The notes under the pieces are model-generated. The model had not been told where the DNA came from. It was given only the letters and a program-made list of their open reading frames with translations, and did not search any database. From Rhizobium sp. CB3090 (GTDB lineage Bacteria; Pseudomonadota; Alphaproteobacteria; Rhizobiales; Rhizobiaceae): a stretch of 64,000 nt of DNA. Positions 45,353 through 63,329 of the stretch are shown here, piece by piece. The stretch covers positions 1,364,001-1,428,000 of the forward strand of contig NZ_CP121663.1 in the NCBI RefSeq assembly GCF_029714285.1, written 5' to 3'. A program made the translations under genes and the position numbers. Numbering within the stretch: position 1 is the stretch's first letter; every line of letters starts with the position of its first letter.

Positions 45353-45368
45353 CCTTAACACATTAAGG
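45353..45368. promoter_or_regulatory. Inverted repeat at the hpaB ribosome site
   Basis: CCTTAA-CACA-TTAAGG, with the right arm ending in the ribosome binding site before the ATG at 45377. A related palindrome (TTAACGTGTTAA) lies before hpaF at 57250-57261, so this may be an operator or a translational switch. Confidence 0.5.
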
Positions 45369-46942: not shown

Positions 46943-46952
46943 GGCCTTTGCC

Positions 46953-47557: not shown

Positions 47558-49036
47558 TCAGAGCTGGATCCACGCCGTCTTCAGATCCACGTATTTGTCA
47601 AACGCATGCAGCGACTTGTCGTGGCCGTTACCCGATTGCTTGACGCCGCCAAGCGGCACGCTGTTATCAGCGCCGCCATAGGTGTTGACATGGACGACGC
47701 CGGCGCGGATTCCCCGCACTATCCGATGGGCGCGCGACAGGTTCGACGTCCAGACGGCGGAAGCCAGACCATAGTCGGTGGCATTGGCGATCTGCAGGGC
47801 TTCGGCTTCCGTCTCGAAGGGAATGACCGACAGGATAGGCCCGAACACCTCCTCGCGTGCCAAAGTCATTGACGGGGTGACATCGAAGACGGTCGGTCGC
47901 ATGTAATAGCCCCCGGTTTCCTCGAGAATGCGCGAGCCGCCGGTGCGCAACGATGCGCCCTCCGACATCGCCTGCGCGACATAGCCGAGGTCCTTCTTCA
48001 ACTGGATCTCGCTGGAAATGGCGCCTGCTTCCGTCGTCAACTGCAGGGGATCGCCGACCTTCATGCTCTCGGCAATGCGCGCGACCTTCTCCGAGAAGGC
48101 GGCATAAATCGACTTTTCGACCAGCAGCCGGGAACCGGCGACGCAGACCTGCCCGGAATTGCGGAAGATACCATAGGCCGACACCTTGGCCGCCTGATCG
48201 AGGTCCGGCGCATCGGCAAAGACGATGTTCGGGGATTTGCCCCCAAGCTCCAGATAGACGCGCTTCAGGTTTGAGCATGCTGAATATTCCAGAAGTCGCC
48301 GACCGATCGGGCCGGAACCGGTGAAGGCGAGCACGTCGACATCCATATGCAGTCCCAGCGCCTCGCCGCAGATGGCGCCGCGCCCGGTGACCACGTTGAA
48401 CACGCCATCAGGCAAGCCGGCCTCGGCGCAAATTTCGGCAAGCTTGAGAAGCGTCAACGACGCGCCTTCGGCGGGTTTCAGCACGACGGAATTGCCCGCG
48501 GCAAGCGCCGGGGCAATCTTCCAAGCGCCGATCATCATCGGGAAATTCCACGGCACGATGGCGGCTACGACGCCGATGGGCTCGCGGTGGACCAGGCCCA
48601 GAATATTCTCTGCCGTCGGCGCAATCTCGCCATAGACCTTGTCGATTGCCTCGGCATAGTAGCGGAACGTGCCTGCGGCACTCCCGGGCTCGGCCCTCAG
48701 GGCCATCGAGATTTCCGTGCCGTTGTCGCGGACGCCGAGCACCGCGAGTTCGAGCGCATTCTTCTCGATCAGCTCGGCGATCTTCAGTAGCACCTTCTTG
48801 CGCTCCGCCGGCGCTGCTTTCGACCAACTGCCCTTTTCAAAGGCATGCCGGGCAGCCTTGACCGCAAGATCGACATCTTCCCTATCGGCATCGGCGATGG
48901 TGGTCAGCCTTGTACCGTCGATCGGCGAGATGACATCCATGACGGCGCCGCTGACAGACTGGCGCCATGCGCCGCCGATAAACAATGCCTGCGGGGAAAC
49001 GGGTAGTGCCCGGAGCTGGTCGATCTTGTCCTGCAT
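47558..49036 (-). CDS. NAD(P)-dependent aldehyde dehydrogenase (PuuC-like)
   Basis: A 492-residue enzyme with VPWNFPMMIGAWKIAPALAAG, the general-base Glu in LELGGKSPNIVFADA and catalytic Cys in NSGQVCVAGSRLL. Closest in appearance to gamma-glutamylaminobutyraldehyde/phenylacetaldehyde-type dehydrogenases. In this locus it most likely oxidises 4-hydroxyphenylacetaldehyde (or the dihydroxy form) to the acid used by HpaB or HpaD. Co-oriented with the permease gene. Confidence 0.92.
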   Translation of the reverse strand: MQDKIDQLRALPVSPQALFIGGAWRQSVSGAVMDVISPIDGTRLTTIADADREDVDLAVKAARHAFEKGSWSKAAPAERKKVLLKIAELIEKNALELAVLGVRDNGTEISMALRAEPGSAAGTFRYYAEAIDKVYGEIAPTAENILGLVHREPIGVVAAIVPWNFPMMIGAWKIAPALAAGNSVVLKPAEGASLTLLKLAEICAEAGLPDGVFNVVTGRGAICGEALGLHMDVDVLAFTGSGPIGRRLLEYSACSNLKRVYLELGGKSPNIVFADAPDLDQAAKVSAYGIFRNSGQVCVAGSRLLVEKSIYAAFSEKVARIAESMKVGDPLQLTTEAGAISSEIQLKKDLGYVAQAMSEGASLRTGGSRILEETGGYYMRPTVFDVTPSMTLAREEVFGPILSVIPFETEAEALQIANATDYGLASAVWTSNLSRAHRIVRGIRAGVVHVNTYGGADNSVPLGGVKQSGNGHDKSLHAFDKYVDLKTAWIQL

Positions 49037-49093: not shown

Positions 49094-50548
49094 TCAGGCT
49101 TCCTGGCCGGCACCGAGGCGCGCAAAGCCTGCCGCATCCGAAGACTTCAGGCGGGCCGCTGCGATAAGCCCGATGACTGCAGCGATCAGCACGAGGCCCG
49201 GCAACAACACCGCGAGCACGCCATTGGCACCGGCGATCGCCCCGAAGTTCGCCGAGATATAATAGACGAGCGCCAGAAGGATCAGCCCCGTCACGATCGG
49301 CAAGACCTTGACTGCCAATGCGTTGCGTTCCAGTCCAGGATTGCGGGTGAAGAACACGACGATCGAGAAGGCGGTGAACGCCATCAGCAGAATGATTGCC
49401 AGCGTGGCGACATTGGTGAGCCAGGAGAAGAGCGCCAGCACCGGATCCTGACCGGTCGCTGCAAAGAGCGCGACCACAAGCACGGCGATAACGGTCTGGA
49501 TGATCGAGCCGACATGCGGGCTCTGGAAGATCGGATGCGTGACGCCGACCGATTTCGGCAACAGGCCCTCGCGACCCGCAACATACATATAACGTGCCAC
49601 ACCATTGTGGAACGCAAGGACGCCGGCAAAGAGGCTGGTGATGAAGAGAACGCTCATCACGACCGTAATCCAATGGCCGACATAGCGCTCGGCAAGGCCG
49701 AAGAGGAACGTGGTCGGATCGGCAAGGCCCTGCAGTGCCGGAACGAGCTTGTCGACGCCAGCACCATTCACCATCAGCCAGGAGGTCAGCATATAGAAGA
49801 GGCCGATGATGAGAACGGAAATATAGGTTGCGCGCGGCACGGTCTTTTCCGGTTCGCTAGCTTCTTCGCTGTAGATGGTCGTTGCCTCGAAGCCGATAAA
49901 GGCGGCGAAGCAGAACAGGAGACCGATGGCCGGCGTTCCGCTCCAGAAGGCCGCCGGGGTGAAAGGTGCTGCGGAGAGGCCGGCATCGCCACCTTGGACG
50001 AAAATAGCGGCGTCGATGATGAGCACGACCAGATATTCGAGAATGACGAGCACCGTCAGCACCTTGGCCGATAGATCGACGCGTCGGTAGCCAAAAACGG
50101 CAACGAAGACGATGCCGACAAAGCTCCAAACCCACCAGGGAAGGTCAAGGCCGAGCTGTTCGGCAAAAAAGCCCTTTGTTGCCGCCCCGAAAAGCCCGAG
50201 AACGCCAACCTGCATGGCATTATAGGCGAGGATGGCGATCAGCGCGGCGGCGCCGCCCATGAGGCCGCCGAGACCCTGGGCCGTGTAGGCGTAGAAGGCG
50301 CCGGCGTTGCGGATATGGCGCGCCATCGCGACATAGCCGACGGAAAACAGCAATAGAATACCCGTGACCAACAGAAAGGTCAGCGGGATGCCCGGCCCGT
50401 TGCCAAGCATCATCGAAAGCGGCACGCCGCCAGCAACCGCGGTGAGCGGCGCTGCGGCCGAGACCACCAGAAAGGTAACGGCACCGACGCCGAGGCTATT
50501 TTTGCGCAACTGGTTTTCAGCCGGCCCTTGTGAATTTTGTGTGTTCAT
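49094..50548 (-). CDS. APC-superfamily amino acid/amine permease
   Basis: A 484-residue protein with about twelve hydrophobic segments; LGVGAVTFLVVSAAAPLTAV at the start, GFEATTIYSEEASEPEKTVPRATY (APC signature) and GVARYMYVAGREGLLPKSVG. It probably imports the amine or aromatic amino acid that this locus degrades. The ATG at 50548 has AGGGGAA rather far upstream. Divergent from the IclR regulator gene. Confidence 0.88.
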   Translation of the reverse strand: MNTQNSQGPAENQLRKNSLGVGAVTFLVVSAAAPLTAVAGGVPLSMMLGNGPGIPLTFLLVTGILLLFSVGYVAMARHIRNAGAFYAYTAQGLGGLMGGAAALIAILAYNAMQVGVLGLFGAATKGFFAEQLGLDLPWWVWSFVGIVFVAVFGYRRVDLSAKVLTVLVILEYLVVLIIDAAIFVQGGDAGLSAAPFTPAAFWSGTPAIGLLFCFAAFIGFEATTIYSEEASEPEKTVPRATYISVLIIGLFYMLTSWLMVNGAGVDKLVPALQGLADPTTFLFGLAERYVGHWITVVMSVLFITSLFAGVLAFHNGVARYMYVAGREGLLPKSVGVTHPIFQSPHVGSIIQTVIAVLVVALFAATGQDPVLALFSWLTNVATLAIILLMAFTAFSIVVFFTRNPGLERNALAVKVLPIVTGLILLALVYYISANFGAIAGANGVLAVLLPGLVLIAAVIGLIAAARLKSSDAAGFARLGAGQEA

Positions 50549-50862
50549 CTGCGTTCGTTCCCCTTGTTGAGAATATCCGATCATCGCTGCGATTGCGCGC
50601 AGGCGACCTCCACCAAAAACCGGACTGACGAACGGGGCTGATGCTTTTGTTGATTTTGCCGCCGTCAGCGCTTAAGGTTCATTATTTGAACCATAGCTTC
50701 AAATATAGACTTGCAAACATTCCCTGCCTCTGTCAAGTTATTTCGCATGTTAAGTATCTTGGGTCGCTGCTCGTGCCGCGGCGCAGGGTCAGCGATCTGA
50801 TGGACGGAAAGCTTCGGCCGGACGCAGGAAATCAGAAGCTGGCCAACCCAAGAGGAGGAACG
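50549..50862. promoter_or_regulatory. Divergent control region of permease and iclR-type gene
   Basis: AT-richer than its surroundings. It contains the palindrome GGTTCA-TTATT-TGAACC at 50676-50692 and a TGTTAAG half-site at 50748-50754 resembling the TTAAC palindromes before hpaB and hpaF. The natural regulator to test is the IclR-type protein at 50863. Confidence 0.5.
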
Positions 50863-51696
50863 ATGAGCACGATCGGAAAGGCGCTTTCATTGCTGGATAC
50901 CCTGTCACGGCTGGACAAGGAGGCGGGCCTCACCGACATCGCCCGCTTGTGCACGCTGGACAAGGCAACCGCACGCCGCTTTCTGGTGGAACTGGAAAAA
51001 CACGGCTTCGTCGAGCAGGACCCGGATACGCGCCGCTATCGCATCGGCTCGGCGCCGGTTCGCCTCGCACGCATTCGCGAAGCACGCTTTCCGCTGTTGC
51101 GGGTCGCGATCCCGTTCATCAAGTCGCTCGCCGAATCGTCGACTGAAACGGTGCATCTTTCGGAATTCTCCGGTGGGCAGCTCTCGACCATCCATGTGGA
51201 GGATTCGCCGCGCGCGCACCGCATCATGATCGATGTCGGCAGCCTCCTGCCCTTTCATGCCACGGCCTCCGGCCTTGCTTTCCTGGCATTCTGCCCGCGG
51301 ATAGAGATCGACAAAGCGCTCGGAAAGACGCTCGAGAAATTTACCGATCACACCGTTGTCGACCCTCAGCGCGTGCGCAATCTGCTTGATGAGACGGCAG
51401 CGCGCGGCTTTTCTATCAGCGACCAAGGTCTCGAAGCCGGCGTCATCAGCACGGCGGCGCCGATCCGCACGCCCAACGGCCATCCGATCGGCTGCGTTGC
51501 CGTCGCCGCCCCGCTTTCGCGCACCACAAAGGCAACCATCCATGAATTCGGTGCGCAGGCAGTTACTGCAGCCAATGCAATCTCAGAAAAATATTACGGG
51601 TCGGAAAGACCCATGGGAACCAGTCCAAAGTCAGGAGGACAGATTGATGAGCCCCGAGGCTTCCCCGCCAAAGATACTCGTCATCGGAACCGGTGA
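50863..51696 (+). CDS. IclR-family transcriptional regulator
   Basis: A 277-residue regulator; AGGAGGAA sets the start at 50863. N-terminal winged HTH (GLTDIARLCTLDKATARRFLVELEKHG split over residues 21-47) and C-terminal effector domain (DQGLEAGVISTAAPIR, GCVAVAAPLSR). IclR proteins sense aromatic or small acid effectors. Its end overlaps the next gene by 50 bases, so it probably controls the long operon it leads as well as the divergent permease. Confidence 0.92.
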   Translation: MSTIGKALSLLDTLSRLDKEAGLTDIARLCTLDKATARRFLVELEKHGFVEQDPDTRRYRIGSAPVRLARIREARFPLLRVAIPFIKSLAESSTETVHLSEFSGGQLSTIHVEDSPRAHRIMIDVGSLLPFHATASGLAFLAFCPRIEIDKALGKTLEKFTDHTVVDPQRVRNLLDETAARGFSISDQGLEAGVISTAAPIRTPNGHPIGCVAVAAPLSRTTKATIHEFGAQAVTAANAISEKYYGSERPMGTSPKSGGQIDEPRGFPAKDTRHRNR

Positions 51697-52900
51697 CACC
51701 AAATGCGACGAACTGCAATTCATGGCATCCATCATCCAGGAAGCCGGCGGCCAGCCGGCCATGGTCGATGTCAGCATTCTCGGCGATCCACCCTATAGAC
51801 CGGATTACTCCAAGCACGACGTTGCGAACGCTGCCGCAACCTCGATCGAGGCAATCGCCGAAAGCGGCGATGAAAACAGCGCCATGGCGGCCATGGCAAA
51901 GGGTGCGGCGACGCTGACCCGCCGCCTCTATGAAGACGGATTGGTCGACGGCGTCATCGTGCTCGGCGGCTCCATGGGCACGGATCTGGCGCTCGATGTC
52001 GCCGCCGTCCTGCCGCTCGGCGTTCCTAAATTTGTAGTTTCGACCATCGCTTACTCCCATCTCATTCCGCCCGAACGCATCGCGCCTGACCTGATGATGA
52101 TCCTGTGGGCCGGCGGTCTCTATGGCCTCAACAGCATCTGCCGCTCGGTCCTCTCGCAGGCCTGCGGTGCGGTCGTCGGTGCTGCAAAGCACGGCACCAA
52201 GCCGGATCGCAAACGCCCGCTTGTCGGCATGACATCGCTCGGTTCCTCCTGCCTGAAATATATGAAGTATATACGCCCTGAACTGGAAAAACGCGGCTAT
52301 GACGTCGCCGTATTCCATTCCACCGGTATGGGCGGACGCGCCTATGAAGCGATCGCTTCGAAGGGTGACTTTGCCGCCGTCTTCGATTTCTGCATACAGG
52401 AGGTCAGCAATCATCATTACGGCAGCGTCGTCACGTCCGGGCCGGACAGGCTCGAAAATGCCGGACGCGCCGGCATTCCGCAGATCGTTGCACCCGGCGC
52501 GGTCGACATGGTCGATCTTCAGGCGTGGCAGGCCCTGCCGGAGATTTTCGTCGATCGCCCGTATCACGCCCATAACCGGCTGATCGGATCGGTGACGACA
52601 TCGCCGGAGGGACGACGGGAGGTCGCCCGGTTGATCGGGCAGAAACTGCAACGCGCCGGTGCGAAGGTCGCTTTCCTGCTGCCGACCGAAGGACTGCAGG
52701 AATGGGACAAACCGGATGAGCCGCTGCATGATCCGGAAGGCCTCGAAGCTTTCATAGACGAAATGCGCCGGGCCATTCCGCCCACCGTCACGCTGCAGGA
52801 AGTCGATTCCCATATCAACGCGCCCGCCTTCTCGGCCGCCGCACTCGCCATATTCGATCAATGGGTGGCCGAGGGCGTCATTCCGGAGGGACGGCTGTGA
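51647..52900 (+). CDS. Tm-1-like ATP-binding (UPF0261) protein
   Basis: A 417-residue protein with AGGAGG before its ATG. Family features: VIGTGDTKCDELQFMA, VLGGSMGTDLALDV, VSTIAYSHLIPPERIAPDLM, GMTSLGSSCLKYMKYI, and VAPGAVDMVDL. The plant member Tm-1 binds ATP and viral replicase; bacterial roles are unknown, and the family is often paired with a PEP-hydrolase-like TIM barrel that is absent here. It may ligate or activate a pathway intermediate. Confidence 0.88.
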   Translation: MSPEASPPKILVIGTGDTKCDELQFMASIIQEAGGQPAMVDVSILGDPPYRPDYSKHDVANAAATSIEAIAESGDENSAMAAMAKGAATLTRRLYEDGLVDGVIVLGGSMGTDLALDVAAVLPLGVPKFVVSTIAYSHLIPPERIAPDLMMILWAGGLYGLNSICRSVLSQACGAVVGAAKHGTKPDRKRPLVGMTSLGSSCLKYMKYIRPELEKRGYDVAVFHSTGMGGRAYEAIASKGDFAAVFDFCIQEVSNHHYGSVVTSGPDRLENAGRAGIPQIVAPGAVDMVDLQAWQALPEIFVDRPYHAHNRLIGSVTTSPEGRREVARLIGQKLQRAGAKVAFLLPTEGLQEWDKPDEPLHDPEGLEAFIDEMRRAIPPTVTLQEVDSHINAPAFSAAALAIFDQWVAEGVIPEGRL

Positions 52901-53547
52901 CAACAGACCGCGCTCTTATCCTCGACTTCGGCGGCGTCGTCACCCGCACCCTGTTCGAAACGCATGACATCACCGAACGCACGCTCCGCCTTCCCAAGGG
53001 ATCGCTGACCTGGCTCGGCCCGTTCGACACGACGACGGACCCGCTCTGGGTGGCGATGCAGAACCGCGAGATCACCGAGCGCGACTATTGGCTCACACGC
53101 GCCAGCGAAGTCGGCAAGCTGGTCGGCGAGACCTGGACCGACATGCAGACCTTCGTGCGCCGGGCGCGCGGCGCCGAACCGGAACTGGTTCTTCGTCCGG
53201 AAGCGCGCGACGCCATCCTGCGCACCAAGGAGGCCGGCCTGAAACTGGCAATCCTGTCGAACGAACTCGATCTCTTCTACGGCGTCGAGTTCCGCCAGCG
53301 TTTTCCGTTGATCGACCTCTTCGACGTCATCGTCGATGCCACATATACGAAGATCCTCAAGCCCGATCCCCGTTCCTACGAGCTCGTTCTTTCCGAGCTC
53401 GACCTGCCGCGGGAGGCCTGCGTCTTCGTGGACGACCAGAAGAAAAACATCGAGGGCGCCGAAGCCGTGAACCTGCCTCACGTGCATTTCGATGTGACCC
53501 GCCCCGCTGAAAGCTATGCCCGCGCACTTGCCATGCTGGGGCTCTAA
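52897..53547 (+). CDS. HAD-superfamily hydrolase
   Basis: A 216-residue protein from a GTG overlapping the previous stop (GTGA). HAD motifs: LILDFGGVVT (the second Asp of DxD is Gly), LAILSNELD, Lys in KILKPDP, and VFVDDQKKNI. The DFGG form is common in HAD phosphatase-like proteins of the epoxide-hydrolase N-domain/haloacid type. Possible role: removing phosphate from a pathway intermediate. Confidence 0.88.
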   Translation: MTTDRALILDFGGVVTRTLFETHDITERTLRLPKGSLTWLGPFDTTTDPLWVAMQNREITERDYWLTRASEVGKLVGETWTDMQTFVRRARGAEPELVLRPEARDAILRTKEAGLKLAILSNELDLFYGVEFRQRFPLIDLFDVIVDATYTKILKPDPRSYELVLSELDLPREACVFVDDQKKNIEGAEAVNLPHVHFDVTRPAESYARALAMLGL

Positions 53548-53563
53548 ACCAAGAGGAATCGAC

Positions 53564-54919
53564 ATGCGTGAAACCAATTTCATCATCGAAAACAACGCCC
53601 GTCACCTGTGGCATCCGATGGCTCATCCCGCGGAAATGCAGGCCAATCCGCCGCGCATCATCAATTCCGGCGAAGGCGTTGAGATCGTCGATATCCATGG
53701 CAGGAAGGTGCTGGACGCGGTCGGCGGCCTCTGGAACGTCAACCTCGGCTATTCCTGCGAGCCGGTGAAGAAGGCGATCCGCGACCAGCTCGACGAGCTG
53801 CCCTATTATTCGACCTTCCGCGGCACGACGAACTCGCCGCTGATCGAACTCTCCTACGAGCTTGCCGAATGGTTCAAGCCGGATGGCCTCAGCCGTTCCT
53901 TCTTCACCTCCGGCGGCTCGGATTCAGTCGAAACCTGCCTACGGCTGGCGCGTCAGTACCATAAGGTCAATGGCCAGCCGGAGCGCACCAAATTCGTCGC
54001 GCTGAAGAAGGGCTATCACGGCACGCATTTCGGCGGCGCCTCCGTCAACGGCAACCAGAACTTTCGCCGCAACTACGAGCCGCTGCTGCCGGGCGTCATC
54101 CACCTGCCCGCTCCCTTTACCTATCGCAACCCGTTCAACACGACCGACGGCGCGGAGATTGCGGCTGCCATCGGCAGGCTCTTCGAGGATGAAATCGCCT
54201 TCCAGGGTGCCGATACCATCGCCGCGCTAATCGTCGAGCCGGTGCTTGGCGCCGGCGGCGTCATCGTTCCGCACGAGACCTTCCTGCCGCTGATGCGCGA
54301 TATCTGTGATCGGCACGGCATCCTGCTGATCGCCGACGAAGTGATCACGGCCTTCGGCCGCACCGGTGCCTGGACCGGATCGCGCCTCTGGGGCGTCCAG
54401 CCGGACCTGATGTCGACCGCAAAGGCGATCACCAACGGTTATTTCCCCTTCGGAGCCGTGATGATCGGAGACAAGGTGGCGCAGGTTTTCGAGAGCAACA
54501 AGAGTGCGGTCGGCAGCATTGGTCACGGCTACACCTATTCCGGCCACCCGGTCGGTGCGGCCGCAGCCCTTGCCACATTGAAGGAAACCAAGCGGCTCAA
54601 CGTCGCGGCCAACGCGGCGGCGCGCGGTGAAGAGCTGCTGGCCGGCCTGAAGAAGCTGCAGGACAAGCATGAGCTGGTAGGCGACGTGCGTGGCAAGGGC
54701 TTGATGTGCGCTCTCGAACTTGTCAGCCACCGCGCGAAGAAGAGCGGTGCTGCCAAGGATGTCGTGCAGAAGGTTCAGGATGCGACCTATGACGCCGGCG
54801 TTCTGATCCGCACCTCGGGCGTGAACGTCATCATGTCGCCGCCGCTGATCGTGACCGCCGAGAATGTTCAGACTATCTTGACCGCGCTCGACGCAGGTCT
54901 CGCCGCGGCGAGGGGCTGA
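53564..54919 (+). CDS. Class III omega-aminotransferase
   Basis: A 451-residue PLP enzyme; AAGAGGAA precedes the ATG. Motifs: HLWHPMAHP, FFTSGGSDSVETCLRLAR (phosphate-binding loop), LIADEVITAFGRTG (PLP Asp), and the Schiff-base Lys in STAKAITNGYFPFGAV. It resembles amine:pyruvate/putrescine-type aminotransferases and could deaminate tyramine, dopamine or a related amine to the arylacetaldehyde. Confidence 0.93.
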   Translation: MRETNFIIENNARHLWHPMAHPAEMQANPPRIINSGEGVEIVDIHGRKVLDAVGGLWNVNLGYSCEPVKKAIRDQLDELPYYSTFRGTTNSPLIELSYELAEWFKPDGLSRSFFTSGGSDSVETCLRLARQYHKVNGQPERTKFVALKKGYHGTHFGGASVNGNQNFRRNYEPLLPGVIHLPAPFTYRNPFNTTDGAEIAAAIGRLFEDEIAFQGADTIAALIVEPVLGAGGVIVPHETFLPLMRDICDRHGILLIADEVITAFGRTGAWTGSRLWGVQPDLMSTAKAITNGYFPFGAVMIGDKVAQVFESNKSAVGSIGHGYTYSGHPVGAAAALATLKETKRLNVAANAAARGEELLAGLKKLQDKHELVGDVRGKGLMCALELVSHRAKKSGAAKDVVQKVQDATYDAGVLIRTSGVNVIMSPPLIVTAENVQTILTALDAGLAAARG

Positions 54920-54921
54920 TC

Positions 54922-56205
54922 ATGTCCGATAACGCAACCCTCATCGCGCGCCGCGAACGACTTCTCGGCCGAAACATGTCGCTCTTCTATGATGATCCGG
55001 TGCATCTGGTACGCGGCGAAGGCGTTTGGCTCTGGGATGCCGATGGCCGCAAATATCTCGATTGCTACAACAATGTGCCGCATGTCGGCCATTGTCATCC
55101 CCGCGTGGTGGAAGCGATCACGCAGCAGGCCTCCACGCTGAATACGCATACCCGCTACCTGCATGAAGGCATTCTCGACTATGTCGAGCGGCTGACGGCG
55201 ACTTTCGACAAGAGCCTTAATGCCGCGATCCTGACCTGCACGGGCAGCGAAGCGAACGACGTGGCGCTACGTATGGCGCAGGCAGTGACAGGTAAGACCG
55301 GCGTCATCGCCACGAACCACACCTATCATGGCAATACGACCGCCGTGTCGCAGCTATCGACCCGCATGCCGCCGCTCGGAGGCTTCGGCGGCCATGTCCG
55401 GCATGTACCGGCGCCGGACAGCTACCGTCCGTTTGGCGGTGAAGGCGGCGACGCCTTTGCTGCGATATTTGCAGCCGAAGTCGAAAAGGCGATCGCCTCG
55501 CTTCAGGATAGCCCGCACGGCTTCTCGGCCATCATCATCGATCCATTCTTTGCCAATGAAGGCTTTCCGGATCTGCCGCCGGGCTTTCTCGACAAGACCG
55601 TTGCAGCCGTGCGCAAGGCCGGCGGTCTGGTGATCACCGACGAGGTGCAGCCCGGCTTCGGCCGCACAGGCTCGCACATGTGGGGCCATCAGCGCGCCGG
55701 TATCGTTCCCGATATTGTCACGCTCGGCAAGCCGATGGCCAACGGCCATCCGGTCGGCGGCGTCATTGCCAATGTCGATACGATAAATGCCTTCCGCAAA
55801 GCATTCCGCTACTTCAACACCTTCGGCGGCAATCCGGTCTCCTGTGCGGCGGCGATGGCCGTGCTCGATGTCATCGAGGATGAAAGCCTCGTCGAGAATG
55901 CCCTCAATGTCGGCGAATACACGCGTGACGCCTTCAAGAGGCTTGCCGAGAAACATTCGATCATCGGCGATGTGCGCGGCAGCGGCCTCTTCATGGGCAC
56001 CGAATTCGTGCTCGACAAAGAAACGAAGGAGCCTGCCACCGCTCAGGCGACCCGGATCGTCAACGCCATGCGCGAGCGCGGCGTGCTGATGGGCAAGATT
56101 GGCATTCACCAATGCGCCACAAAGATTCGCCCGCCGATGCCATTCTCCAAGGACAATGCCGACTTCATGTTGTCGATCTTCGACGACGTGTTATCCGGCC
56201 TGTGA
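54922..56205 (+). CDS. Class III PLP enzyme, amino-alcohol-phosphate phospho-lyase type
   Basis: A 427-residue enzyme whose motifs match the AGXT2L/ethanolamine-phosphate phospho-lyase subgroup more than transaminases: YLDCYNNVPHVGHCHP, TCTGSEANDVALRMA, ITDEVQPGFGRTGSHMWG, VPDIVTLGKPMANGHPVGGV (with the Schiff-base Lys) and YFNTFGGNPVSCA. Such enzymes release ammonia and phosphate from a phosphorylated amino alcohol to give an aldehyde. The gene just downstream encodes an APH-fold kinase, the expected partner. An ordinary aminotransferase cannot be excluded. Confidence 0.85.
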   Translation: MSDNATLIARRERLLGRNMSLFYDDPVHLVRGEGVWLWDADGRKYLDCYNNVPHVGHCHPRVVEAITQQASTLNTHTRYLHEGILDYVERLTATFDKSLNAAILTCTGSEANDVALRMAQAVTGKTGVIATNHTYHGNTTAVSQLSTRMPPLGGFGGHVRHVPAPDSYRPFGGEGGDAFAAIFAAEVEKAIASLQDSPHGFSAIIIDPFFANEGFPDLPPGFLDKTVAAVRKAGGLVITDEVQPGFGRTGSHMWGHQRAGIVPDIVTLGKPMANGHPVGGVIANVDTINAFRKAFRYFNTFGGNPVSCAAAMAVLDVIEDESLVENALNVGEYTRDAFKRLAEKHSIIGDVRGSGLFMGTEFVLDKETKEPATAQATRIVNAMRERGVLMGKIGIHQCATKIRPPMPFSKDNADFMLSIFDDVLSGL

Positions 56206-56212
56206 GGCTGAT

Positions 56213-57232
56213 ATGGCTGATCAGTTGCCGCAGACCATCCGCGATGCTTTGCAGAAGCGTGCGCTGGAGGCACTCGACCATTGGCCGGTGCAGGCCCACG
56301 AACCTCTCCTGATGAAATATCGGGAGAATGCCGTCTTCCGCATTACTCTCGAAGATGGAAAGTTCGCGGCCCTGCGGCTGCATCGGCCGGGCTATCATGA
56401 CGAGACAAGCCTGCGCTCGGAGCTGCAATTCATGGCCGCCCTCAAGCTCGGCGGTCTCGACGTGCCGAGCCCGGTTCCGACGAGCAATGAGCAGAGCCTC
56501 ATTCTCCTGCCGGCCAACAAGCTTTTTCCCGAACAGCATGCCGACGTGGTGAGCTGGATCGACGGCGTTCCGCTTGGGCAAAGCGGTATGCCGCTGTCGC
56601 AATCGGCTAATACGCAGGCGGATATCTTCTTCCGCATCGGCCACGGCATGGCCATCATGCACGAGCTTGCCGATGCCTGGGAGACACCAGAGCACTTTCG
56701 CCGTCCAGCATGGGACGCCGAAGGCTTGCTCGGAGAAAAGCCGCTCTGGGGACGCTTCTGGGATTGCCCGGGGCTTCCTCCCCAAAGCATTGCCGTACTT
56801 TCAACATTGCGCGATGAGCTGCGCCAGGCGCTTACGGCGATATCTCCAGGCGACCTGGACTACGGATTGATCCATGCCGATCTCGTGCGGGAAAATATCT
56901 TCCTGACGGAAAACGAAAGCAAAGTTGCCTTCATCGATTTCGACGATGCAGGGCATGGCTTCCGCCTCTTCGATCTCGCGACGACCCTGCTGAAAAACCG
57001 CAACGAGCCGGCCTATCCGGCAATCGAGAAAGCGCTGATATCAGGCTATCGCAGCCGACGTGTGTTTTCCGACGCGGCACTGGCGAGCCTGCCGCTCTTC
57101 ATGGTGCTGAGGAACCTCACCTATATCGGATGGCTTGCCGAACGCGCGGAAATTCCTGGCGCGGCAGAGCGCCTGTCCCATTACGTCGCTGAAAGTTTGG
57201 AGATGGCAAGAAAGCTCAATAAGGCAGCTTGA
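56213..57232 (+). CDS. APH-fold small-molecule kinase (hydroxylysine/amino-alcohol kinase-like)
   Basis: A 339-residue phosphotransferase. FAALRLHRPGYHD carries the ATP-site region, HADLVRENIFL is the catalytic HxDxxxxN loop, and FIDFDDAGHGFRLFDLA the metal-binding Asp. It resembles hydroxylysine kinase and bacterial proteins encoded beside or fused to class III phospho-lyases. I infer that it phosphorylates a hydroxyl beta to an amine, preparing the substrate for the preceding enzyme. Confidence 0.82.
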   Translation: MADQLPQTIRDALQKRALEALDHWPVQAHEPLLMKYRENAVFRITLEDGKFAALRLHRPGYHDETSLRSELQFMAALKLGGLDVPSPVPTSNEQSLILLPANKLFPEQHADVVSWIDGVPLGQSGMPLSQSANTQADIFFRIGHGMAIMHELADAWETPEHFRRPAWDAEGLLGEKPLWGRFWDCPGLPPQSIAVLSTLRDELRQALTAISPGDLDYGLIHADLVRENIFLTENESKVAFIDFDDAGHGFRLFDLATTLLKNRNEPAYPAIEKALISGYRSRRVFSDAALASLPLFMVLRNLTYIGWLAERAEIPGAAERLSHYVAESLEMARKLNKAA

Positions 57233-57249
57233 CATCCTCCATATAATTG

Positions 57250-57261
57250 TTAACGTGTTAA
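57250..57261. promoter_or_regulatory. TTAAC palindrome upstream of hpaF
   Basis: TTAAC-GT-GTTAA, in the 54-base gap between kinase and hpaF and 25 bases before the ATG. It is similar to TTAAC-AC-ATTAA inside the repeat before hpaB. Confidence 0.45.
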
Positions 57262-57286: not shown

Positions 57287-57673
57287 ATGCCACATCTCGC
57301 CATCGAATATTCGGCCAATCTGCAGGGTCGTGCCGACATCGGCGCGCTCTGCGATCGGCTGTTGAAGACGGTCCTCGAGACCGGCCTTTTCGAGGTCGGT
57401 GCCGTGCGCGTGCGCGCCTTTCGCGCCGATCACTACGCAATCGCCGACAAGCTGCCCGAGAATGCCTTCGTCGATCTGAACTTCCGCATTGGGAAAGGTC
57501 GCACGGACGAAGAGAAAAAGCGCGCCGGCGAAGCGATCTTTGCCGCGGCCGTCGACGTTCTCGGCCCCCTCTTCGAGACGCCGCATTTCGCCCTCTCGCT
57601 GGAAATCCGCGAGATCGATGCGGAACTGAGCTGGAAGAAGAACGCCATCCATCCGCGGCTGCGCGGCAAGTAA
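57287..57673 (+). CDS. hpaF: 5-carboxymethyl-2-hydroxymuconate delta-isomerase
   Basis: A 128-residue tautomerase-superfamily protein with GGGAGGA upstream. Pro2 becomes the catalytic Pro1 after Met removal (MPHLAIEYSAN). FVDLNFRIGKGRT and FALSLEIREID are typical of CHMI. It isomerises the product of HpaE in the homoprotocatechuate meta pathway. Confidence 0.93.
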   Translation: MPHLAIEYSANLQGRADIGALCDRLLKTVLETGLFEVGAVRVRAFRADHYAIADKLPENAFVDLNFRIGKGRTDEEKKRAGEAIFAAAVDVLGPLFETPHFALSLEIREIDAELSWKKNAIHPRLRGK

Positions 57674-57714: not shown

Positions 57715-59232
57715 ATGTCCAAACTGCAGGAAAACATCGCAAAGGCGGAAACCTATCTTGCCCGGTTCAAGGAGCGCGGCGTCCTGAACCGCATCAATGG
57801 CGAGGATGTGCCTGGTGACGATGGTTCCAGCTTCGAGACGATCTCGCCCGTCGATCTGAAGCCGATCGCCACCGTCGCCCGCGGCAAGGTGGCCGATATC
57901 GACCGCGCGGCAAGAGCCGCAAAGGCCGCCTTTGCCGAATGGGCCGCCATGCCCGGCGAGGCGCGCAAGAAGCTCCTGCACAAAATCGCCGACGCGATCG
58001 TCGCTCGCGCCGAAGAGATCGCCTTCGTTGAATGCATGGATACCGGACAGTCGCTGAAGTTCATGGCCAAGGCAGCCCTGCGCGGGGCCGAGAACTTCCG
58101 CTTCTTCGCCGACCGCGCACCGGAGGCCCGGGATGGCAAGGCGCTGCGCGCCGAAGGCCAGATGAACCTGACGACGCGCGTGCCGATCGGCCCCGTCGGC
58201 ATCATCACGCCCTGGAATACGCCCTTCATGCTGTCGACCTGGAAGATCGCGCCGGCGCTTGCCGCCGGATGCACCATCGTTCACAAGCCGGCCGAATTCT
58301 CGCCGCTGACCGCGCGTCTGCTGGTGGAAATTGCCGAGGAAGCCGGCCTGCCGAAGGGTGTCTGGAATCTTGTCAACGGCTTTGGCGAGGATGCCGGCCG
58401 CGCGCTGACGGAACATCCGTTGATCAAGGCGATCGGCTTCGTTGGCGAAAGCCGCACCGGCTCGATGATCATGAAGCAGGGCGCAGACACGCTGAAGCGC
58501 GTGCATTTCGAGCTCGGCGGCAAGAACCCGGTCATCGTCTTTGCCGATGCCGATCTCGAGCACGCGGCCGACGCCGCCGTCTTCATGATTTATTCGCTGA
58601 ATGGCGAACGCTGCACCTCGTCCTCGCGCCTGCTGGTCGAGGAAAGTGTCTACGACAAGTTCACCAACCTCGTCGCCGAGAAGGCCAAGCGCATCAAGGT
58701 CGGTCATCCGCTGGATCCGGAAACCGTCATCGGCCCGCTCGTGCATCCGGTGCATGAACAGAAGGTACTGGAATATATTGAGATCGGCCGATCGGAGGGC
58801 GCAACGCTCGCCGCCGGCGGCGAGAAGGTCAACGGCCCGGGCGGCGGTTGCTATGTCTCCCCCACCCTGTTCACCGGTGCCAACAACCAGATGCGCATCG
58901 CCCAGGAAGAAATCTTCGGGCCGGTGCTGACCGCCATCGCCTTCAAAGACGAGGCCGATGCGCTCGCCCTTGCCAACGATGTCCAATACGGCCTGACCGG
59001 CTACCTGTGGACGTCGGATGTGACCCGCGCCTTCCGTTTCACCGATCATCTCGAAGCCGGGATGATCTGGGTGAACTCGGAAAACATCCGCCATCTGCCG
59101 ACCCCCTTCGGCGGGGTCAAGAGCTCCGGCATCGGCCGCGACGGCGGCGACTGGTCTTTCGATTTTTACATGGAAACCAAGAACATCGCCTTCGCCACCA
59201 AGCCGCACGCCATTCAGAAACTCGGCGGCTGA
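57715..59232 (+). CDS. hpaE: 5-carboxymethyl-2-hydroxymuconate semialdehyde dehydrogenase
   Basis: A 505-residue NAD-dependent ALDH with TPWNTPFMLSTWKIAPALAAG, general base Glu in FELGGKNPVIVFADA and catalytic Cys in NGERCTSSSRLL. The C-terminal VKSSGIGRDGGDWSFDFYME is the HpaE form. It oxidises the ring-cleavage semialdehyde to the dicarboxylate. Confidence 0.94.
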   Translation: MSKLQENIAKAETYLARFKERGVLNRINGEDVPGDDGSSFETISPVDLKPIATVARGKVADIDRAARAAKAAFAEWAAMPGEARKKLLHKIADAIVARAEEIAFVECMDTGQSLKFMAKAALRGAENFRFFADRAPEARDGKALRAEGQMNLTTRVPIGPVGIITPWNTPFMLSTWKIAPALAAGCTIVHKPAEFSPLTARLLVEIAEEAGLPKGVWNLVNGFGEDAGRALTEHPLIKAIGFVGESRTGSMIMKQGADTLKRVHFELGGKNPVIVFADADLEHAADAAVFMIYSLNGERCTSSSRLLVEESVYDKFTNLVAEKAKRIKVGHPLDPETVIGPLVHPVHEQKVLEYIEIGRSEGATLAAGGEKVNGPGGGCYVSPTLFTGANNQMRIAQEEIFGPVLTAIAFKDEADALALANDVQYGLTGYLWTSDVTRAFRFTDHLEAGMIWVNSENIRHLPTPFGGVKSSGIGRDGGDWSFDFYMETKNIAFATKPHAIQKLGG

Positions 59233-59262: not shown

Positions 59263-60243
59263 ATGCCCCTGCCGAAACCCAATCTCTATCCGCCCTTCAA
59301 CATCGTGCGCCTCAGCCATGTCGAATTCGGCGTCACCGATCTCGCCAAGTCCCGCGCCTTCTATGTCGACACGCTCGGCCTGCAGGTGACGGACGAGACC
59401 GCGGACACGATTTACCTGCGGGCGATGGAGGAACGTGGCCATCACTGCATCGTGCTGAAAAAGTCCGACAAGGCCGAAGCCCGCGATCTCGGCTTCAAGG
59501 TGTTCGGCGACGAGGATCTTGACAAGGCTGCGCATTTCTTCAAGGGCAAGGACCTGCCGGTGGAGTGGGTCGAGCGCCCCTACCAGGCGCGGACCTTCCG
59601 AACGCGCGACCCGCATGGCATTCCCCTCGAATTCTATTCGAAGATGGACCGCCTGCCGCCGATCCACCAGAGATACGCGCTCTACAAGGGCGTGAAGCCG
59701 CTGCGCATCGACCACTTCAACTGCTTCTCGACCAATGTCGATGAAAGCGTCGCCTTCTACAACGAACTCGGCTTCCGCGTGACCGAATATACCGAGGACG
59801 AGGAAACCGGCCGCCTCTGGGCCGCCTGGACGCATCGCAAGGGCGGCGTCCATGACATCGCCTTTACCAACGGCCGCGGTCCGCGCCTGCACCACACCGC
59901 ATTCTGGGTGCCGACGCCGCTCAACATCATCGACCTGCTCGACTTGATGGCGACCACCGGCTGGGTTGCCAATATCGAGCGCGGTCCAGGCCGTCACGGC
60001 ATCTCCAACGCCTTTTTCCTCTACATTCTCGATCCGGACGGCCATCGTATCGAGATCTATTGCTCGGATTATCAGACCGTCGATCCCGATCTGGAGCCGA
60101 TCAAGTGGGACCTCAAGGATCCGCAGCGCCAGACATTGTGGGGCGCGCCCGCTCCCAAATCCTGGTTCGAACATGGTAGCCTGTTTGCCGGTGCGGAAGT
60201 GGCCGAGCCTGATTTGAAGGCACAGCCGATTATCGCGCCTTAA
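59263..60243 (+). CDS. hpaD: Homoprotocatechuate 2,3-dioxygenase, type I extradiol
   Basis: A 326-residue vicinal-oxygen-chelate enzyme with AGGAGGAA before the ATG. Two VOC modules; the catalytic one has metal ligands His151 (IDHFNCFS), His210 or His211 (RLHHTAFWV) and Glu264 (IEIYCSDY), offset by a few residues from the Fe/Mn enzymes of Brevibacterium and Arthrobacter. It cleaves the ring of 3,4-dihydroxyphenylacetate, the central step of this locus. Confidence 0.95.
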   Translation: MPLPKPNLYPPFNIVRLSHVEFGVTDLAKSRAFYVDTLGLQVTDETADTIYLRAMEERGHHCIVLKKSDKAEARDLGFKVFGDEDLDKAAHFFKGKDLPVEWVERPYQARTFRTRDPHGIPLEFYSKMDRLPPIHQRYALYKGVKPLRIDHFNCFSTNVDESVAFYNELGFRVTEYTEDEETGRLWAAWTHRKGGVHDIAFTNGRGPRLHHTAFWVPTPLNIIDLLDLMATTGWVANIERGPGRHGISNAFFLYILDPDGHRIEIYCSDYQTVDPDLEPIKWDLKDPQRQTLWGAPAPKSWFEHGSLFAGAEVAEPDLKAQPIIAP

Positions 60244-60311: not shown

Positions 60312-61766
60312 ATGAAATTGAAAGACACAACATTGTTCCGGCAAGCCGCATTGGTCGGCGACGAGTGGATCGAAGCCGATCCATCCAATGCGATCAGGGT
60401 CGACAATCCGGCGACGGGCGAGATCATCGGCCTTGTTCCCAATCTGGGGGCTGCGGAAACCAAGAAGGCGATTGCCGCAGCCGAACTTGCACAGAAAGAA
60501 TGGGCAACCCGCACCGCCAAGGAGCGCTCCGGGATCCTGCGGCGCTGGTTCGAGCTGATGATGGAAAACCAGGACGACCTCGGACGCATCCTGACGACCG
60601 AACAGGGCAAGCCGCTTCCTGAGGCCAAGGGCGAAATCGCCTATGGCGCAAGCTTTGTCGAATGGTTCGCCGAAGAGGCCCGCCGTGTCTATGGCGACAT
60701 CATCCCCGGCCACCAGAAGGACAAGCGTATTCTGGTGTTGAAGCAGCCGATCGGCGTGGTCGCGGCAATTACCCCCTGGAACTTCCCGAACGCCATGATC
60801 ACCCGCAAGGCCGGCCCTGCCTTTGCCGCCGGCTGCGCCATGGTCTTGAAGCCTGCCTCGCAGACGCCGTTCTCGGCGATCGCGATTGCGGTGCTTGCCG
60901 AACGCGCCGGCCTCCCCAAGGGCCTCTTCAGTGTACTGACCGGCTCAGCCCGCGCCATCGGCGGCGAGATGACGGCAAGCCCGGTCGTGCGCAAGCTGAC
61001 CTTCACCGGCTCGACCGAGGTGGGCGCCGAGCTCTATAAGCAGAGCGCGCCGACCATCAAGAAACTCGGGCTGGAGCTCGGCGGCAATGCGCCCTTTATC
61101 GTATTTGACGATGCTGACCTCGATGCCGCCGTCGAAGGGGCGCTGATCGCCAAGTTCCGCAACAACGGCCAGACCTGCGTCTGCGCTAACAGGCTCTATG
61201 TGCAGGACGGAGTCTACGATGCCTTTGCCGAAAAACTCTCCAAGGCCGTCGGCACGCTCAAGACCGGCAATGGCTTCGACAACGGCATCAATCTCGGCCC
61301 GCTGATCGACGAGGCAGCCCTTGCTAAAGTCGAGGAACATATTGCCGATGCGCTTTCCAAAGGCGGTCGCGTCGTTACCGGCGGTCACCGCCATCAGCTC
61401 GGCGGACGTTTCTATGAAGCGACCGTGCTGGCCGATGTCACGCCGACGATGGCTGTCGCCAGAGAAGAGACCTTCGGGCCGGTGGCTCCCCTCTTCCGCT
61501 TCAAGGATGAGGCGGATGTCATCGCTCAGGCCAACGACACCGAATTCGGCCTTGCCTCCTACTTCTACGCCAAGGATCTCGCCCGCGTCTTCAGGGTCGC
61601 CGAAGCGCTGGAATATGGCATGGTCGGTGTCAATACCGGCCTGATCTCGACGGCCGAAGCCCCCTTCGGCGGCGTCAAGCTCTCCGGCCTTGGCCGCGAG
61701 GGTTCGCGCTACGGCATCGAGGAGTTCACTGAAATCAAATATGTCTGCCTCGGCGGCGTCGTCTGA
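60312..61766 (+). CDS. gabD: Succinate-semialdehyde-type dehydrogenase
   Basis: A 484-residue ALDH: TPWNFPNAMITRKAGPAFAAG, Glu in LELGGNAPFIVFDDA, Cys in NGQTCVCANR, and the C-terminal LSGLGREGSRYGIEEF typical of GabD. The homoprotocatechuate pathway ends in pyruvate and succinic semialdehyde, so this enzyme can carry the latter into the TCA cycle. Confidence 0.92.
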   Translation: MKLKDTTLFRQAALVGDEWIEADPSNAIRVDNPATGEIIGLVPNLGAAETKKAIAAAELAQKEWATRTAKERSGILRRWFELMMENQDDLGRILTTEQGKPLPEAKGEIAYGASFVEWFAEEARRVYGDIIPGHQKDKRILVLKQPIGVVAAITPWNFPNAMITRKAGPAFAAGCAMVLKPASQTPFSAIAIAVLAERAGLPKGLFSVLTGSARAIGGEMTASPVVRKLTFTGSTEVGAELYKQSAPTIKKLGLELGGNAPFIVFDDADLDAAVEGALIAKFRNNGQTCVCANRLYVQDGVYDAFAEKLSKAVGTLKTGNGFDNGINLGPLIDEAALAKVEEHIADALSKGGRVVTGGHRHQLGGRFYEATVLADVTPTMAVAREETFGPVAPLFRFKDEADVIAQANDTEFGLASYFYAKDLARVFRVAEALEYGMVGVNTGLISTAEAPFGGVKLSGLGREGSRYGIEEFTEIKYVCLGGVV

Positions 61767-61922: not shown

Positions 61923-63329
61923 ATGGATAGCGAAGAATTCCGTCATTGGTCTCGAAAAGTCGCCGACTGGGGCACCGATTATCGCGCGGGCCTGCGCGAG
62001 CGGCCGGTACGGGCACAGACGAAACCTGGCGATATCGCCCGGCAAATCGCCGATTCAGCACCGGAAGCGGGCGAGGAGATGGAAGCGATCTTCGCCGATT
62101 TCGAGCGCATCATCCCGGATGGTCTAACGCACTGGCAGCATCCTCGCTTCTTCGCCTATTTCCCGGCGAATGCTGCGCCGGTCTCGGTGATCGCAGACTA
62201 TCTCGTCACCTCCATCGCCGCCCAGTGCATGCTATGGCAGACCTCGCCGGCGGCGACTGAGCTTGAAACTTGCGTGGTCGGCTGGCTGCGACAAGCTATG
62301 GGACTTCCGGACGGTTTTGCCGGCCTCATCCAGGATTCCGCCTCGACTGCGACGCTCGCCGCCGTACTGGTGATGCGCGAAAAGGCCCTCGGCTGGAAGG
62401 GCAACAGCGAGGGGCTTTCAGCGCAAAAGGCCGTACGCGTCTACGCCTCAAAACAAGTGCACACCTCCATTGACCGGGCGATCTGGATAGCCGGCATCGG
62501 CGAGGCAAATCTGGTACGCATTCCCACCAAAGGCCCGCTCAATGGCATGGACCCCGAAGCGCTGGATGCCGCGATCAAGGCCGACCTTGCCGCCGGCCAT
62601 ATCCCGGCCGGCATCATCGCCTGCACCGGCGGCACCTCGATCGGCGCCTGCGACCCGATCCGCGCGGTTGCTGAAGTCGCGAAGGCGCACGGGCTCTACC
62701 TGCATGTCGACGCCGCCTGGGCCGGTTCCGCGATGATCTGCCCCGAGTTCCGCAAGCTTTGGGACGGCGTCGAGGCCGCGGACTCCATCGTCTTCAACCC
62801 TCACAAATGGCTCGGTGCCAATTTCGACTGCTCGGTACAGTTCATCCGCAGTCCGGAAGACCAGGTACGCACGCTCGCCATCCAGCCGGAATATCTGAAG
62901 ACGCACGGCCATGACGGTATCATCAACTATTCCGAATGGTCCGTGCCGCTCGGCCGTCGGTTTCGCGCGCTGAAACTCTGGTTTCTTATGCGCTATCACG
63001 GGCTTGAAGGGCTGCGTACCATGATCCGCAACCATGTGGCCTGGTCGCAAGAGCTGGCTAAACGGCTTGCCGCCGAACCGGATTTCGAACTCGTCAGCGA
63101 GCCGGTGCTGTCGCTCTTTTCCTTCCGCCATAAAGGTGGTGAGGACGTCGACCGCCACAACATTGCACTGGTCAACGCCATCAACGACGATGGCCGCATC
63201 TATCTCACGCAAACCCGCGTCGACGGGCGTATCGCTATCCGCTTCCAGGCAGGCCAGTTCGAGATGACCCGCGATGACGCCGACACGGCCTTCACGGTGA
63301 TCACCGAGATTGCCCGCAGCTTGACATAG
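61923..63329 (+). CDS. Group II PLP decarboxylase (aromatic-L-amino-acid type)
   Basis: A 468-residue enzyme of the AADC/tyrosine decarboxylase family: WQHPRFFAYFPANAAPVSVI, LIQDSASTATLAAVLVMR, LHVDAAWAGSAM (PLP Asp) and FNPHKWLGANFDCS with Schiff-base Lys295. It probably decarboxylates tyrosine, DOPA or a related amino acid to an amine, which links aromatic amino acids to the amine branch of this locus. The exact substrate cannot be read. Confidence 0.9.
   Translation: MDSEEFRHWSRKVADWGTDYRAGLRERPVRAQTKPGDIARQIADSAPEAGEEMEAIFADFERIIPDGLTHWQHPRFFAYFPANAAPVSVIADYLVTSIAAQCMLWQTSPAATELETCVVGWLRQAMGLPDGFAGLIQDSASTATLAAVLVMREKALGWKGNSEGLSAQKAVRVYASKQVHTSIDRAIWIAGIGEANLVRIPTKGPLNGMDPEALDAAIKADLAAGHIPAGIIACTGGTSIGACDPIRAVAEVAKAHGLYLHVDAAWAGSAMICPEFRKLWDGVEAADSIVFNPHKWLGANFDCSVQFIRSPEDQVRTLAIQPEYLKTHGHDGIINYSEWSVPLGRRFRALKLWFLMRYHGLEGLRTMIRNHVAWSQELAKRLAAEPDFELVSEPVLSLFSFRHKGGEDVDRHNIALVNAINDDGRIYLTQTRVDGRIAIRFQAGQFEMTRDDADTAFTVITEIARSLT

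Follow-up and report, generated by a model that had tools for sequence, protein, structure and literature searches.

What do a putative phospho-lyase and a kinase do in the middle of a homoprotocatechuate (hpa) catabolic locus? The question is raised by positions 1364001–1428000 of a 1.77-Mb contig in the 6.49-Mb, four-contig genome of Rhizobium sp. CB3090, a stretch of 64,000 nucleotides that is called the window below. An initial annotation, made from the sequence alone, had placed a gene for a class III pyridoxal-phosphate (PLP) enzyme and one for an APH-fold kinase between an ω-aminotransferase gene and hpaF-hpaE-hpaD, and both genes are found there. From the families of the two proteins and their genomic surroundings, we propose that the pair probably provides the entry step for β-hydroxylated aromatic amines such as octopamine, noradrenaline and their relatives. 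The kinase would act first, and the phospho-lyase would then release an arylacetaldehyde.

Families of the PLP enzyme and the kinase

The PLP enzyme scores 257.8 bits against the Pfam Aminotran_3 model, and its closest relatives come from Rhizobium species (94–95% identical). Among solved structures it matches the phospholyase 5g4i at 402 bits and 6tor (ETNPPL) at 361 bits, the next class III enzyme reaching 203 bits. A maximum-likelihood tree was built from the PLP enzyme, references, lyase-type proteins, the window aminotransferase and the 14 further class III proteins that the genome encodes. The PLP enzyme groups with 5g4i and 6tor, apart from the window aminotransferase and 13 of those 14 proteins, with ultrafast bootstrap support of 100 for 20 separate lyase-type proteins and of 98 when a fused paralogue, L002, is added. 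The three signature motifs quoted in the initial annotation all occur in the translation. K270 occupies the position of the Schiff-base lysine, NNVxHVGH spans residues 50–57, and N74, T77 and R78 follow; R11, N50, N51, H54, N74, T/S77, R78 and K270 are common to the PLP enzyme, 5g4i and ETNPPL. N50, N51 and V52 are shared by the PLP enzyme, 5g4i, 6tor and L002; neither the window aminotransferase nor any of the other 13, non-fused, class III proteins encoded in the genome has the N50-N51 pair. Single hallmark positions (R11, R78) do occur in some of these proteins (R78 in L003). Judged by its sequence, the enzyme is of the phospho-lyase type, as first assigned.

L002 (G000:C1:3755062-3756330, minus strand) is a second phospho-lyase-like domain that carries the NNV signature inside a 1026-residue open frame and is reminiscent of the fused family PRK06148.

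The kinase scores 86.8 bits against the Pfam APH model, and its catalytic HxD and DxD motifs are intact. Its best solved relative is 6ef6 at 140 bits, followed by amicoumacin kinase at 46 and homoserine kinase at 38 bits. The 6ef6 record is named aminoglycoside phosphotransferase only; we take it to be the 1-amino-2-propanol kinase from the RMM microcompartment of Mycobacterium smegmatis. This nearest relative agrees with the amino-alcohol-type kinase partner initially proposed. Homoserine kinase was rejected as an identity, as the two ThrB-alt NCBIfam models give 46.7 bits (cut-off 271) and 38.2 bits (cut-off 255.9).

Database names for the pair include 'aspartate aminotransferase family protein' and 'homoserine kinase', and these labels favour a reading with the PLP enzyme as a second true transaminase for tyramine or dopamine, next to an unrelated homoserine-kinase-like protein. 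We consider this highly improbable, given that tree and scores set the enzyme with the phospho-lyases, that its N50-N51 pair is missing from the non-fused class III proteins of its own genome, and that the kinase is far closer to 6ef6 than to homoserine kinase. Grouping with true transaminases, the check that the initial annotation had named, did not appear in the tree; identification as a transaminase was rejected on that ground.

A conserved module associated with homoprotocatechuate catabolism

We surveyed 165 lyase loci: 80 were named loci, 6 came from plasmid records, and 79 were stretches of genomes in two evenly drawn samples. A lyase was assigned to the module when at least two of the aminotransferase, aldehyde dehydrogenase, UPF0261 and HAD genes lay within 10.5 kb, using marker identity thresholds set by hand; the kinase was not a criterion. 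Dereplication on the first 300 lyase residues reduced 77 module loci to 71. A kinase of the window family lies within 11 kb of the lyase at all 71; over the full 165 loci, a similarity search found no kinase at 17. Because the arrangement recurs in 71 non-redundant loci with lyases 57–94% identical, it is not a product of chance. Other neighbours at these loci are an IclR regulator (64), a tripartite tricarboxylate transporter permease (37), HAD (35), the APC permease (21) and the aromatic amino acid decarboxylase (8).

The UPF0261/Tm-1-like protein, itself a selection gene, accompanies kinase and lyase at 69 of the 71 loci and may be a so far overlooked enzyme in their pathway.

In the tree of surveyed lyases, the module members form a broad grade of 72 tips with 22 non-module lyases scattered among them. 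A separate clade of 47 paralogous lyases (L061, L157, L167 and 44 more; support 0.98) contains no module member. This clade has a conserved setting of its own, with the kinase alongside in most cases, pncB-type genes in 37 of 47 and pncA-type genes in 28 of 47 (names from reading the sequences), and no link to aromatic genes. Of the 71 module lyases, 34 have an hpa gene within 11 kb, as do 20 of the 56 outside the rhizobial clade, as against none of the 47 paralogues.

The constant presence of the kinase also bears on whether the lyase might eliminate water directly from an amino alcohol, leaving the kinase some other role. PbfA, the (R)-1-hydroxy-2-aminoethylphosphonate ammonia-lyase, offers a precedent: a class III PLP enzyme reported to convert its β-hydroxylated amine with no phosphorylation beforehand (PMC8154272). 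It loses water and not phosphate, however; the window lyase reaches only 215.6 bits against the PbfA NCBIfam model, whose cut-off is 525, and the kinase lies near the lyase at every module locus. A PbfA-like reaction therefore has only a very slight chance of being correct.

Association with HpaD, the ring-cleaving dioxygenase, was examined at the genome level with Fisher tests, which take genomes as independent and ignore their kinship. Among 244 evenly drawn Rhodobacterales genomes, 22 carry a module lyase. VOC-type HpaD occurs in 18 of these 22 and in 52 of the 222 others (p 8e-8), and VOC- or LigB-type HpaD in 20 of 22 versus 59 of 222 (p 3e-9). Genomes with a paralogous-clade lyase, which serve as the control in the same sample, show no link (8/30 with HpaD versus 71/214). 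Fetched loci covered 58 of the 60 lyase-bearing Rhodobacterales genomes, leaving out G370 and G408 (lyases 55 and 51% identical). For Hyphomicrobiales, with the genome under study excluded, VOC-type HpaD was found in 6 of 8 module genomes and in 33 of 288 others (p 8e-5), within 5 kb of the module lyase in 5 of the 8; here 19 of the 31 lyase-bearing genomes, plus the genome under study, were covered, and 11 with lyases at 49–52% identity were counted as non-module. Second lyase copies in four genomes (G046, G080, G136, G180) fall outside the survey. In a match-selected set, which lacks a matched background, HpaD scored above cut-off in 41 of 50 genomes; the set represents 50 of 76 loci, a hand-chosen mixture of module and non-module cases from 42 isolates and 8 metagenome-assembled genomes. 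The kinase–lyase pair belongs to a conserved module associated with homoprotocatechuate catabolism. The link to aromatic catabolism that the initial annotation drew from one locus is thus statistical in Hyphomicrobiales and Rhodobacterales and is seen at single loci in Granulosicoccaceae, Sphingobium and Paenarthrobacter.

Among the 60 plasmid matches listed, 12 were opened and 11 of these were annotated; an hpa gene is present in six (H6, H29, H39, H53, H55, H56) and missing from the stretches of five (H50, H51, H58, H59, H60). The regulator gene hpaR adjoins the module or the pair in two Ruegeria and in Pseudosulfitobacter.

Where HpaD is missing, another route may take its place. Both Rhodobacterales module genomes with neither HpaD type, G318 (Kandeliimicrobium) and G319 (Frigidibacter), have a flavin monooxygenase gene (PRK08132) adjoining the module. 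In G318 homogentisate dioxygenase and fumarylacetoacetase genes lie there too; in G319, whose monooxygenase is 89% identical, hmgA is elsewhere in the genome. Natronohydrobacter (G332), with no HpaD above cut-off, has hmgA, fahA and a flavin monooxygenase (71%) next to the module, and G413 has both HpaD and the homogentisate set nearby. As hmgA is widespread (11 of 12 genome handles, two of them apparently one assembly), only its position beside the module counts. The two handles behind that assembly are G253 and G339 (loci L195 and L058, on contigs of equal length with hmgA at the same place), in which HpaD is split into two pieces and was scored absent. The kinase and the lyase stay while the arylacetate route downstream is swapped; the PRK08132-type monooxygenase would be the enzyme that makes homogentisate.

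A metallo-β-lactamase-fold protein is encoded with the PRK08132-type monooxygenase at several module copies (L218:8066-10781 on the plus strand, L219, L221 and L245), with hmgA/fahA in L218, L219 and L221. These two proteins are candidates for the step from hydroxyphenylacetate to homogentisate.

The proposed route and the evidence weighed

On our proposal, the kinase would use ATP to phosphorylate an arylethanolamine at its benzylic hydroxyl group. The PLP enzyme would then bind the amine as an external aldimine, remove the proton next to the nitrogen and expel the β-phosphate; hydrolysis of the resulting enamine would yield an arylacetaldehyde and ammonia. The aldehyde dehydrogenase of the module would oxidize this aldehyde to (hydroxy)phenylacetate for degradation by HpaBC and HpaDEFGHI or, elsewhere, by the homogentisate or phenylacetyl-CoA route. 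β-Deoxy amines such as tyramine and dopamine could reach the same aldehyde through the ω-aminotransferase. We infer the substrate, with its aryl group, by working backwards: all aromatic-linked pairs would converge on an arylacetaldehyde, and the compound from which a kinase acting with a β-phospho-lyase would form it is an arylethanolamine. The order of the steps, parts for the aminotransferase and the decarboxylase, any functions of UPF0261 and HAD and a natural use of octopamine or noradrenaline would follow as further elements of the proposal. A side-chain step ahead of HpaB is plausible, because wild-type AbHpaBC is reported to be inactive on octopamine (PMC10816480).

Relatives of 5g4i from outside the module clade were also examined. 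Twelve were listed and seven opened (H61–H65, H71, H72); in four of the seven, 5g4i included, the surroundings contain hpa, paa or tyramine-oxidase genes. The gene for 5g4i is AAur_pTC20101 on plasmid pTC2 of Paenarthrobacter aurescens TC1, where hpaE, hpaH, hpaI and feaB (phenylacetaldehyde dehydrogenase) lie within 12 kb. In Mesorhizobium AR07 the kinase–lyase pair is followed by paaX-pcaF-paaABCDE; in Phyllobacterium it stands by a tyramine oxidase and an aldehyde dehydrogenase, and in Sphingobium near hpc genes and hpaR. The other three of the seven, from an E. coli plasmid, Pseudomonas mandelii and Chelatococcus, have no aromatic neighbours, and the family must therefore be wider than an arylethanolamine function.

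Might the pair instead have a general function, phosphorylating ethanolamine or 1-amino-2-propanol and cleaving the product, and lie in catabolic islands by chance? The hallmark positions of the lyase are as in ETNPPL and 5g4i, the closest solved kinase presumably acts on aminopropanol, and no hpa gene is near at 37 of the 71 module loci. The HpaD association, which the paralogous clade of the same sample lacks, nevertheless speaks against such an arrangement, as do the neighbours of module and related pairs, drawn from three different arylacetate routes. We therefore regard this explanation as improbable, and a simple ethanolamine function was rejected as first choice on the HpaD test with the paralogous clade as control.

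A closer alternative is that the pair performs the same chemistry on another aromatic amino alcohol or on a β-hydroxy amino acid, such as β-hydroxytyrosine or dihydroxyphenylserine ahead of their decarboxylation, or on an O- or N-methylated amine processed beforehand. The cluster itself and 8 of the 71 module loci encode an aromatic amino acid decarboxylase whose nearest solved relative is DOPA decarboxylase, and some loci hint at demethylation through sarcosine-dehydrogenase-like FAD/GCV_T genes (6/71 loci) and P450-like genes (7 and 6 loci). Most module loci lack these genes, however, whereas the kinase is at every one, and solved phospho-lyases of the same subgroup are known to take terminal amines. 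We judge this alternative unlikely, with a small but real chance of being right.

Two of these neighbours deserve mention in their own right. The 852-residue FAD and GCV_T protein, which resembles sarcosine and dimethylglycine dehydrogenases, is by its sequence a candidate N-demethylase for synephrine- or adrenaline-type amines. The two cytochrome P450-like clusters (for example at L144 and L095; named by reading the sequence) could possibly serve in O-demethylation.

Several observations weigh against arylethanolamines as the substrates. Residues diagnostic for an aryl substrate were sought among the lyase hallmark positions and none was found; module lyases share these positions with the paralogous clade, with 5g4i and with ETNPPL, so that by sequence the enzyme could also be an ethanolamine-phosphate lyase, and 5g4i presumably acts on phosphoethanolamine. 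Only 119 of 148 kinases match the pattern used for the HxD motif, whereas all 148 match the second motif. The module loci without an hpa gene within 11 kb, some of them cut by contig ends, make up 37 of 71, and plasmids of R. pomeroyi, Gemmobacter and Leisingera carry lyase, kinase and aminotransferase with no hpa gene in the stretch. No aromatic genes were found near the pairs of an E. coli plasmid, Pseudomonas mandelii, Chelatococcus, Comamonadaceae and Paracoccus, and hpaD is not annotated in the 35 kb viewed around the 5g4i gene, where the gene table is incomplete. In Gammaproteobacteria, where 16 of 370 genomes have the lyase (E 1e-100 or better), hpa, paa and hmg markers appeared in none of 15 newly fetched stretches, several of which end at contig edges; hpa genes accompany the lyase at one sampled locus (G341, L070) and at one of the named set (L086), and the hpa link in this class is weak. 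On chemical grounds, a 4-hydroxybenzylic phosphate is expected to be labile. Were that the case, the intermediate might be channelled between the two enzymes, or the pair might favour differently substituted rings. Finally, extracts of P. aeruginosa reportedly convert octopamine to 4-hydroxyphenylacetaldehyde by an 'octopamine hydrolyase' that is possibly ATP-independent.

Module and paralogous lyases diverge most at positions 149, 168, 133, 366 and 296, none of them a hallmark; 133 and 296 lie beside invariant motifs and could be of importance.

Three related pairs (L229, L131, L213) stand by histone-deacetylase-like and by deacylase or hydrolase genes, with ectoine utilisation genes in L229, suggesting further amino-alcohol substrates.

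Ordinary enterobacterial hpa clusters had also been said to lack the pair. In the comparison made, which covered E. coli only and at the DNA level only, 3 of 5426 genomes match over 10–14% of the query, on plasmids and in no case on a chromosome.

Locus layout, known systems and significance

The genes of the locus are collected in the table. On the plus strand the order is IclR, UPF0261, HAD, ω-aminotransferase, PLP enzyme, kinase, hpaF, hpaE, hpaD, gabD, decarboxylase and hpaG; hpaB and hpaC, also on the plus strand, lie to the left of the minus-strand permease and aldehyde dehydrogenase genes. Directly beyond the window end, hpaH and hpaI follow hpaG, so that with this flank the hpa set (HpaB/C, D, E, F, G, H and I) is complete. 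Annotated R. binae genes are 88–92% identical to hpaC, hpaE and hpaF and 88–93% to hpaG, hpaH and hpaI. Gaps of 2 bases separate aminotransferase and lyase, 7 bases lyase and kinase, and 54 bases kinase and hpaF. A palindrome sits in this last gap and recurs before hpaB with one mismatch; the two matches compare with 0.26 expected, and at least two were seen in 3 of 100 shuffles. It is visible before hpaF in four of eight aligned rows, which are those that reach so far. With the palindrome between kinase and hpaF and again ahead of hpaB, the upper module may be transcribed separately from the hpa genes, which may have an operator and a promoter of their own.

Table. Features of the locus; positions are those of the window unless a locus handle is given.
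Feature	Position	Strand	Remarks
HpaB, 4-hydroxyphenylacetate 3-hydroxylase	45377..46942	+	Pfam match
HpaC-type flavin reductase, frame	46863..47465	+	start provisional; gene order and identity to annotated R. binae gene
Aldehyde dehydrogenase; proposed arylacetaldehyde oxidation	47558..49036	-	
APC-family permease; proposed amine uptake	49094..50584	-	
IclR-type regulator, frame	50641..51696	+	bounds provisional; divergent from permease and aldehyde dehydrogenase
UPF0261/Tm-1-like ATP-binding protein of module	51647..52900	+	start by analogy with R. binae
HAD-IA phosphatase-like protein of module	52897..53547	+	start by analogy with R. binae
Class III ω-aminotransferase (PRK07481); proposed substrate a β-deoxy amine (tyramine/dopamine type)	53561..54919	+	
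Class III PLP enzyme, phospho-lyase type; proposed arylethanolamine-phosphate phospho-lyase	54922..56205	+	ATG 54922, TGA 56203-56205, 427 residues; family by sequence and tree
APH-fold kinase; proposed arylethanolamine kinase	56213..57232	+	ATG 56213, TGA 57230-57232, 339 residues; HADLVREN and IDFDD motifs
HpaF, 5-carboxymethyl-2-hydroxymuconate isomerase	57287..57673	+	gene order and identity to annotated R. binae gene
HpaE, 5-carboxymethyl-2-hydroxymuconate semialdehyde dehydrogenase	57715..59232	+	gene order and identity to annotated R. binae gene
HpaD, VOC-type 3,4-dihydroxyphenylacetate 2,3-dioxygenase	59263..60243	+	TIGR02295, 420.2 bits, above cut-off
GabD-type succinate-semialdehyde dehydrogenase	60312..61766	+	
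Aromatic amino acid decarboxylase	61923..63329	+	best solved relative DOPA decarboxylase 7xin
HpaG-like FAA hydrolase	63351..64000	+	continues past window edge
Palindrome TTAACGTGTTAA, candidate HpaR/MarR operator upstream of hpaF	57250..57261	.	
Palindrome copy, candidate HpaR/MarR operator upstream of hpaB	45355..45366	.	one mismatch
FAD and GCV_T protein	L218:2695-5250	-	also L075, L087, L089, L092, L155, L194

Of the characterized systems, 5g4i/5g4j (which we take to be A1RDF1) is the most similar, as the best solved relative with identical hallmark residues and a locus that likewise encodes a kinase, a permease and a phenylacetaldehyde dehydrogenase. It differs in being 44% identical to the window lyase and in having no Tm-1-like or HAD marker in its stretch. 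ETNPPL and PHYKPL (AGXT2L1/2) share the proposed chemistry and, for ETNPPL, the member compared here by sequence, the hallmark motifs; they are animal enzymes with small or amino acid substrates. The 6ef6 kinase is a distant relative from another setting with another substrate. Arylethanolamines would add a new class of substrates to the known mechanism in which an ETNPPL/PHYKPL-type phospho-lyase works with a partner kinase. We found no description of an arylethanolamine kinase or phospho-lyase in the titles and abstract openings of the open-licence papers listed, an absence that is weak evidence.

The overall conversion proposed for the pair is the same as that of the 'octopamine hydrolyase' of P. 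aeruginosa PAO and the synephrine dehydratase of an Arthrobacter, which turn phenethanolamines into 4-hydroxyphenylacetaldehyde. No gene is known to us for either of these apparently orphan activities. If the proposal is correct, the pair would supply genes for such octopamine- and synephrine-degrading activities, give a function to two genes now labelled 'aspartate aminotransferase' and 'homoserine kinase', and provide a likely physiological substrate for the crystal structure 5g4i. Chemistry familiar from ethanolamine and hydroxylysine would then also degrade neurotransmitter-type amines. We see roughly even chances that a phosphorylation-dependent arylethanolamine route exists across alphaproteobacteria, a few gammaproteobacteria and at least one actinomycete, feeding three arylacetate pathways according to ring hydroxylation. 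Which enzyme strips the β-hydroxyl group and the nitrogen from octopamine is an old question, now directly testable in culturable strains: Rhizobium tropici CIAT 899 and Sinorhizobium fredii NGR234, whose lyases (the only proteins compared) are 93% and 87% identical to that of the window, and Ruegeria pomeroyi DSS-3, in which lyase and kinase are SPO_RS21625 and SPO_RS21630. Plant- and sea-dwelling bacteria would, on this proposal, be able to destroy adrenergic and octopaminergic amines.

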